Shown: piece after piece, positions 1,138 to 31,167 of the stretch | How positions within the stretch are numbered: the stretch's first letter is position 1 | How the letters are laid out: the number at the start of each line of letters is the position of its first letter | The notes under the pieces: generated by a model | What the model saw: only the letters and a program-made list of their open reading frames with translations | The model's database searches: none | What the model was told of the DNA's origin: nothing | Translations under genes and position numbers: made by a program | Origin: Exiguobacterium artemiae 255-15 | Lineage (GTDB): Bacteria > Bacillota > Bacilli > Exiguobacteriales > Exiguobacteriaceae | Direction: 5' to 3' | Assembly (NCBI RefSeq): GCF_000019905.1 | Contig: NC_010556.1 | Span: 2,320,001 to 2,384,000, forward strand | Length of the DNA: 64,000 nucleotides

Positions 1138-1163
1138 AAAATGATCTATTTGCAACAGACGTA

Positions 1164-1276
1164 TGTCCACCCGCTTTTCTCGTGCGGGACGCAAGCCGCG
1201 CCTATCTAACGATGACCGGGTCTTGCCTGTCCCTGACGGAAGCAAGCTTTCTTTTCCCGCAGAAGTCGGATGGACA
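1164..1276 (+). repeat. Structured repeat, unit A1
   Basis: First of four related units in this window. The basal stem is TGTCCA (1164-1169) with TGGACA (1271-1276). Inside, GGGAC and GCAAG pair with GTCCC and CTTGC to form one arm, and a small GAAG/CTTT hairpin forms another. It aligns with the reverse complement of unit B1 (1342-1479), for example CAAGCC...GGGTCTTG and CTGTCNCTGAC in both. Short reading frames through it look spurious. Confidence 0.75.
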
Positions 1277-1341
1277 CGTCTTTTTGCTGATAAAACCCAT
1301 TCAGTGCAAGCGTTCATCTGTTCACACGTATCAAGTAGAAA

Positions 1342-1479
1342 AAATCACTCGATTCATGCAACTCCTTCAGGAAAAAGCGCATTTTTTTGCGCTGTCAGAG
1401 ACAGACAAGACCCGACTTGCGAACAGCAAAGTTTGGCTTGTGTCTCGCCTGAGGAAAGGGCATGAATAACGAGTGATTT
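1342..1479 (-). repeat. Structured repeat, unit B1 (inverted copy)
   Basis: Same family as the unit at 1164-1276, in the opposite orientation. The outer stem is long: AAATCACTCG + ATTCATGC (1342-1359) pairs with GCATGAAT + AA bulge + CGAGTGATTT (1460-1479). Internal arms are GAGAC/GTCTC with ACAAG/CTTGT, a tip hairpin, and AGCGCA/TGCGCT. It fills most of the 460-nt gap after the methyltransferase gene, which holds no convincing gene. Confidence 0.78.
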
Positions 1480-1545
1480 CTTTTGAGTCTCCCTAGCCAT
1501 ATTGGCTACGAAAAGCACGGGAAGAGAAAAATCTTTCAAACGATA

Positions 1546-2602: not shown

Positions 2603-3277
2603 TTACATGTGCTCGATGTTTTGTTTTTTTCGTAGTTTTCGCTGGGCAAAAAAACCAACGATGAAAAAGAACAGGTACAAGAAAATCGCAAAGAAAAATT
2701 GCCAGGAAAACGGATCGCGCAGGCTCGCCCCGATATTGTTGTAAACGAAAGCTCCGGGAATGATGCCGAGGTAACTGGCGAGCGCAAACTGACGGAATTT
2801 AATTTTCGACAGACCGGACGCATAACTGATCGCGTCAAACGGAAATAGTGGAATCAGCCGGACCGTTAAGACGACGAAGAATCCATTCGTGGCAATCCGT
2901 TCATCAAGAATCGTCAACTTACCGGTTCCGATGATTTTTTCGATGCCGCGCCGACCGAGCAGACGGGCAATCCAAAAACTTAGCAAACTGCCGGTCCCTG
3001 CCCCAACGACGTCAAGCAGTGTGCCAACCCACGGACCGTATGTATAACCACCAAACACCGTCAGCAGACTCGCCGGAAAAAAGACGAGCGGACGGATCGT
3101 ATACGCCAATATGTACAGCAACATGCCGAAAGCGCCCTGCTGACGAATCCAGTCAGACAAGGCCTGAATATCAAACTGCTCCATCATTCCCGAAAAACGG
3201 AAATACAGGAGCAGTCCGGCACCCATCAGCATGTAGAGGGTAAACGGGAGCCAGTCCCGTAACTTTAAGTTTTTCAA
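2603..3277 (-). CDS. TVP38/TMEM64 (DedA-like) membrane protein
   Basis: 224-residue integral membrane protein of the VTT/SNARE-associated family, probably involved in lipid or small-solute handling; the exact role is unknown. It shows several hydrophobic segments and the family core FPASLLTVFGGYTYGPWVGT plus RLIPLFPFDAISYASGL. The start chosen is a TTG at 3277 that overlaps the stop of the upstream hemolysin III gene (TTGA), implying translational coupling. A longer frame to a TTG at 3361 exists but would overlap the neighbour by 88 nt and adds a Cys/Arg-rich leader unlike the family. The first ATG is deeper, inside the first membrane segment. Confidence 0.8.
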   Translation of the reverse strand: MKNLKLRDWLPFTLYMLMGAGLLLYFRFSGMMEQFDIQALSDWIRQQGAFGMLLYILAYTIRPLVFFPASLLTVFGGYTYGPWVGTLLDVVGAGTGSLLSFWIARLLGRRGIEKIIGTGKLTILDERIATNGFFVVLTVRLIPLFPFDAISYASGLSKIKFRQFALASYLGIIPGAFVYNNIGASLRDPFSWQFFFAIFLYLFFFIVGFFAQRKLRKKQNIEHM

Positions 3278-30856: not shown

Positions 30857-30875
30857 ATATGTACCCAAAATTATT

Positions 30876-30997
30876 CATTCGCTCGCTTTTCTAGGGCGGA
30901 ACGCGAGCCGCGGATTTTTTTCAGATCTCCGGATATCGCCTGTTCCTGACGGAAGCGTTGCTTCCTTTTCCCTTAGAAGTAAGTCGAGCTATGAATG
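30876..30997 (+). repeat. Structured repeat, unit A2
   Basis: Second plus-oriented copy of the unit at 1164-1276. The basal stem sequence differs, CATTC-GCTCG with CGAGC-(TAT)-GAATG, yet still pairs. GGAAC/GTTCC replaces the GGGAC/GTCCC of A1, and GGAAGC/GCTTCC replaces the weaker A1 hairpin. Shared blocks include CGCTTTTCT, CTGACGGAAGC and TTTTCCC. Confidence 0.75.
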
Positions 30998-31025: not shown

Positions 31026-31167
31026 CACGCATTTCACGCGACTCCTACAGGAAAAAGCGCAAGCCTGCTTGCGCTGTCAGAGACAAACAAGACCCGATTG
31101 CCTGACTCAATGAGGCAGACAAACTGGCTTGTGTCTCGCCTGAGGAAAGCGCGTGAAAAAAAGCGTG
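31026..31167 (-). repeat. Structured repeat, unit B2 (inverted copy)
   Basis: Inverted partner of unit A2, related to B1. The outer stem is CACGC + TTTCACGCG with CGCGTGAAA + GCGTG, of different sequence from B1 but paired. AGCGCAAG/CTTGCGCT and a TGCCT/AGGCA tip hairpin are present. Conserved blocks are ACTCCTNCAGGAAAAAGCGC, GCGCTGTCAGAGACA and GGCTTGTGTCTCGCCTGAGG. The gap from 30857 to 31231 holds no other feature I can see. Confidence 0.78.

Follow-up and report, generated by a model that had tools for sequence, protein, structure and literature searches.

The window is a 64,000-nt stretch of the chromosome of Exiguobacterium artemiae 255-15, a member of the genus Exiguobacterium with a genome of 3.04 Mb (G000 below). 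Two folded units, A and B, lie near its start in inverted orientation, with the start of unit A 18 nt 3′ of the stop codon of a methyltransferase gene. The earlier note had described an inverted pair at these positions, and a covariance model of the repeat (R1, see below) matched both units there, at 1161-1276 on the plus strand (99.3 bits) and at 1351-1471 on the minus strand (119.8 bits). The features are as follows, with the basal stems counted in for A and B.

1156..1285, plus strand: unit A (limits approximate), basal stem CAGACGTATGTCCAC (1156-1170) / TGGACACGTCT (1271-1281), then a T run
1186..1233, plus strand: unit A arm 1, GGGACGCAAGCC ... GGGTCTTGCCTGTCCC, with a tip that varies among copies
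1238..1251, plus strand: unit A arm 2, GGAAGC...GCTTTC
1337..1486, minus strand: unit B (limits approximate), outer stem AAAAAATCACTCG (1339-1351) / CGAGTGATTTCTT (1470-1482), with A/T tracts at both ends
1398..1446, minus strand: unit B arm 1, GAGACACAAGCC ... GGGTCTTGTCTGTCTC
1376..1393, minus strand: unit B arm 2, AGCGCA...TGCGCT
1481..1489, minus strand: probable remnant of a B-type terminal inverted repeat, TTTTGAGTC, from comparison with full-length copies
1512..1524, minus strand: AAAGCACGGGAAG, possibly left over from another member of the family, one that G017 and G009 still have at this place
30873..30990, plus strand: A-like copy of the second pair, model match
31031..31162, minus strand: B-like copy of the second pair, model match

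Units A and B share a 21-nt inverted match (1217-1237 with 1394-1414) that is 90% complementary. Both were predicted to fold better than dinucleotide-shuffled sequences, with z scores of −3.6 for A and of −7.8 and −7.7 for the two strands of B. The reported differences that preserve pairing are also present, with GGGAC/GTCCC in A against GAGAC/GTCTC in B, and GCAAG/CTTGC against ACAAG/CTTGT. The two further units that the note had counted were located by the model as a second inverted pair, in which the cores are ∼40 nt apart.

Unit A was found at the same place in genomes G014, G009, G017, G013 and G004, and in part in G007. The inverted pair had been taken for a single unit. For Exiguobacterium we rejected the idea that A and B move as one, because in G017 and G009 the A-type element is followed by ∼0.9 kb and a different element. 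The wider proposal, that these are structured palindromic repeats of Bacillales intergenic regions in which pairing is kept more than sequence, held. Relatives were searched for a site cleanly lacking A or B, and none was obtained; the downstream neighbourhoods differ.

Copies and common fold of the repeat family

Using blastn with the units, we found 26 matches in G000 and matches in all 19 of the genus genomes searched, and none in the sister genus or in other Bacilli. The covariance model R1, built from 39 A and B copies, gave 32 copies in G000 (E ≤ 0.01) and 20-48 in each of four relatives (E ≤ 1e-5), so the further copies that had been expected do exist. It also gave weaker matches in the sister genus and in several families of Bacilli. 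A second model, R2, built from ten distant matches, detected 12-19 copies in two sister-genus genomes and, in four further Bacilli families, a repeat of the Bacillales type with 7-64 copies in each genome; 9 of 41 genomes were positive. A Peribacillus form was found by Blast on plasmids of Peribacillus, Priestia, Bacillus and Paenibacillus.

A search of the region against Rfam 15 returned nothing up to E = 5, and a known RNA family was rejected on this basis. In the part of the open-access literature covered, where bcr1 was available by description only, we found neither the core nor these elements described, and the open-access literature likewise yielded no IS1182 MITE with such a core.

The copies are unevenly placed in G000, where none of the 32 R1 matches falls between 1.2 and 2.2 Mb of contig C1, a third of the chromosome, and 24 lie between 2.2 and 3.03 Mb; in G001 and G016 they are more spread along the chromosome. 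By eye, no strand bias relative to replication was evident in the G000 list of R1 matches. At the mreB locus of G010 and G014 (L210 and L208) there are duplicated copies of a third subfamily, with the outer stem AAAAGATTCTTTCTTCCCGTG/CACGGGAAGCGAATCTTTT.

The common fold consists of an outer helix, arm 1 with its copy-variable tip, and a second arm. When 46 copies were aligned, 96.3% of cells were paired and 127 cells showed double changes, compared with 29.6 after shuffling and at most 18 with slid partners; since the structure guided the alignment, both figures lean towards it, and many of the double changes are non-independent because A and B differ as groups. Covariation thus exceeded the controls, as had been anticipated. 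The unpaired letters of the core are nearly invariant.

Element ends and terminator hairpins

Several full-length B copies of ∼240 bp occur in G000 and in G001. These have the ends AAAGGGGCTGACTCAAAA...TTTTGAGTCAGC(A/C)CC. The core occupies one side of such a copy, and a second hairpin (GGGTGGCAGATT...) the opposite side. The B end sequence was matched 12 times in G000 and 38 times in G001, and a reversed-pattern control gave no matches; 9 of the 12 and 36 of the 38 adjoin a model match. The bases outside the GGGGCTGACTC ends are A-rich and variable. The B family is thus MITE-like, being short, multi-copy and without a transposase gene, with terminal inverted repeats on the full-length copies. 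In one B-type element of G000 (L160, ∼2700-3010; C1 1972989), the ends and hairpin 2 are present and the core is mostly deleted. In the window, unit B has kept only TTTTGAGTC of one end and lacks hairpin 2 and the other end, and unit A is without any recognisable end.

Three B sites in G000 could be compared with empty sites, and the old intrinsic-terminator hairpin was gone from all three. At glpD, relatives read CGACAAAA-ACTCCTTTGC...GCGAAGGAGT-TTTT, and G000 reads CGACAAAA-element-TTTTTGC. At mreB, relatives read AATCAAAA-AGGTTCATTCC...GGAAATGAACC-TTTTTTT, and G000 reads AATCAAAA-element-TTTTTT. At deoC, Exiguobacterium sp. KRL4 has AAGCGTCC...GGGCGCTTTTTTTG, where G000 instead has an element ending in CACTTTTTG; the deoC protein beside this copy is 99% identical to that of KRL4. 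It is at these three B-type sites, rather than at the window units, that the IS1272-type pattern was found, with the hairpin absent and no duplication. Since only three B sites were compared with empty sites, it is possible that at each of them the old terminator was lost after insertion; as far as the hairpin, however, the flanking sequences agree closely. The end of an inserted B is a G+C-rich stem of its own with a T run after it, so that B can probably serve as a terminator, and A and B in the window may likewise terminate transcription.

A different outcome was seen at other elements. The sister-genus genome G019 has seven near-identical units of ∼560-580 bp whose two ends each carry a core, the cores being inverted to each other, and all seven are flanked on both sides by a locus-specific terminator hairpin of 20-31 bp, with occasional single mismatches. 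Between the paired cores of these units (L240-L246) lies ∼260 bp of conserved sequence with no convincing gene within it. Autonomous IS1182-family ISs with CAGACTGAAGACAAA ends in G009 and G011 have the whole hairpin duplicated at L293, L308, L392, L393 and L395; at L302 and L394 the flanks were checked and the duplication was absent. For plasmid ISs of Sutcliffiella, Peribacillus and Listeria, the hairpin duplications are exact over 30, 24 and 21 bp, respectively. At L402, L405 and L408 the hairpins on the two sides are unlike. The left end of the CAGACTGTAGACAAA-type IS1182 ISs (L402-L408) consists of a hairpin and a T run, apparently an inward-facing terminator. As judged by sequence comparison, the targets chosen by these elements are terminator hairpins.

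The CAGACTG and GAGGCTGGGACA kinds of element ends have IS1182-family ISs with similar ends. For B, the closest matching IS ends were found in G008 (GAGGGTGACTC), with 15 of 17 positions alike by eye between the B end GGGGCTGACTCAAAAGT and the IS end GAGGGTGACTCAAAAGT. No autonomous IS with the ends of B was found in G000 or G001 themselves; the IS1182 of G000 has GAGGCTGGGACATAACT ends and is without the core. G001 has the most full-length B copies, yet gave no match to the IS1182 transposase (PF13751), and the mobiliser would therefore have been lost or gone unrecognised there.

The probable IS1182 connection and origin of the units

With R1 and R2, the core was found inside ISs of G008, G009, G011 and others, where it follows the left end and lies upstream of the transposase gene, on that gene's strand; two Peribacillus ISs have it in the same arrangement. 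Four of the transposase types were tested and all match the NCBIfam IS1182 model (NF033551) above its cut-off, with identities among the types as low as 21-24%. In G061 there are 13 copies in a repeated unit whose ends, GAGGYTGGGACA, resemble those of the IS1182 of G000, and at L255 of G061 and L226 of G046 a core copy precedes the beginning of an IS1182 transposase.

We consider it probable that A and B are decayed, non-autonomous MITE-like elements that belong with terminator-targeting IS1182-family ISs and carry a conserved core with a three-way junction. B would be moved by an IS1182-family transposase. For the window units themselves, which have no intact ends, an origin from such elements is suggested by the homology of the core, and each copy is best taken as a mobile-element relic in its own right, at the 3′ end of a gene. 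The core would then be a cis-acting part of mobility and not a passenger.

The strongest competing explanation, plausible but less favoured, is that the core represents an independent element, mobile or structured, of the form GTTGATT...AATCAAC, which itself inserts secondarily in hairpins, such as the left-end ones of IS1182 ISs, and was captured repeatedly by MITEs and ISs. It would account for the association of the core with ends of at least three kinds (GGGGCTGACTC, GAGGCTGGGACA and CAGACTG), for its own GTTGATT/AATCAAC ends inside the Peribacillus ISs and for the stand-alone copies on Bacillaceae plasmids. There are also sister ISs without it: the core was looked for in the IS1182 of G000 and in plasmid ISs of Sutcliffiella, Listeria and Enterococcus, and was absent. 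IS1182 elements in general can thus transpose without the core, which may have become attached to these ends secondarily. Repeated capture fits less well with the equal placement of the core (left end, upstream, transposase strand) in the G009 and G008 types, which share ∼24% protein identity; such placement in distant IS1182 groups is also compatible with old shared ancestry.

The other alternative is that the units are selected 3′ elements maintained by the host (terminators, protectors of mRNA 3′ ends or protein-bound RNAs), with mobility as their origin only. This bears on where the copies lie and how well they are conserved. Gene context was taken from a simple custom gene finder, with the low-GC genome G044 left out. 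None of 46 copies overlaps a predicted gene; 44 are positioned downstream of one gene or more, and 30 occupy convergent gaps. In 39 of the 46 the upstream gene is on the copy's own strand, as a host role would favour; orientation is, however, uninformative in convergent gaps and the bias in tandem gaps is small (9 copies sense, 5 antisense). Selection against damage to genes or promoters could yield much of the gene-end placement for any mobile element. At the window locus, the identity of G000 and G014 is 90% over A and 95% over B, and that of G000 and G007 is 96% over B, against 59-61% at the four-fold sites of the two genes adjoining A and B in the same comparisons. This suggests constraint, as does the near invariance of the unpaired core letters, but the four-fold sites may be saturated, the A-B spacer is also fairly similar between species, and exchange between species or copies is possible. 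Moreover, the sites differ between species, with the mreB gap holding different subfamilies or none across 19 genomes, and at least one A copy (L093) has separate terminators alongside. Maintenance by the host is, on balance, rather unlikely as the explanation of the units. Mobilisation as REP-like repeats by a Y1 (RAYT/IS200) transposase would suit structured, intergenic, high-copy sequences but is very improbable, as the ends and target behaviour fit IS1182/IS1272 and PF01797 was found in 9 of 19 genus genomes, mostly as IS200-type proteins of 137-140 aa, when the repeats occur in all 19.

Returning to IS1182-linked elements as the preferred reading, the most likely course is that the transposase would recognise the element ends together with the hairpin target, and that joining would occur at the base of the target hairpin, which would afterwards be lost or copied. 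Where the ends are of the GGGGCTGACTC type, the element has taken the hairpin's position; where they are of the CAGACTG type, the whole hairpin is left on both sides of the element.

That IS1182 elements target terminators was already known. In the accessible parts of two reports (PMC5678879, PMC4923244), IS1272 and TnSha1, IS1182-family elements of staphylococci with 16-bp inverted ends, take the place of stem-loops or terminators and leave no target duplication, and their hairpin targets are often terminators just downstream of genes; duplication of the whole stem-loop is put forward as one pathway by Wan et al. in the accessible part of their paper (PMC5678879). By these partial accounts, the B elements give the same outcome at three sites, removal of the hairpin. 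The present units differ in being ∼110-240 bp long, without a transposase gene and with a conserved multi-arm core, and no such core is described for IS1272 or TnSha1 in the published descriptions as far as accessible. The CAGACTG-type IS1182 ISs (Exiguobacterium G009/G011, Peribacillus, Sutcliffiella, Listeria) have an IS1182 transposase and, like B, are inserted at terminator hairpins, and in several of them the core lies upstream of the transposase gene; however, the whole hairpin is duplicated rather than removed, the ends are unlike those of B, and some lack the core.

Among structured intergenic repeats of Bacillales, bcr1 of the Bacillus cereus group, Bhal-1 of B. halodurans and comparable stem-loop families occur in tens of copies according to a table in the accessible part of one source (PMC2267715). 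BOX, RUP and SPRITE of pneumococcus and MITEs are, in the accessible part of another, short non-autonomous structured elements, some of them terminator-like (PMC10969869). All of these were compared by description, and the descriptions, as far as accessible, mention no IS1182 link.

These results link a folded repeat that is common in Bacilli and has had no name with a family of transposons, and the repeats would sit behind genes because the elements land on transcription terminators. They also add new examples of both outcomes proposed for hairpin targeting, removal and whole-hairpin duplication, and provide a conserved module now open to direct testing for a role in mobility or termination. 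More tentatively, the core could be a Bacilli-wide structured module with a specific cis function for IS1182-family elements, such as recognising hairpin targets or protecting against read-through. If so, terminators in Bacilli would have been swapped repeatedly for folded terminators that are mobile and share a conserved recognition surface.
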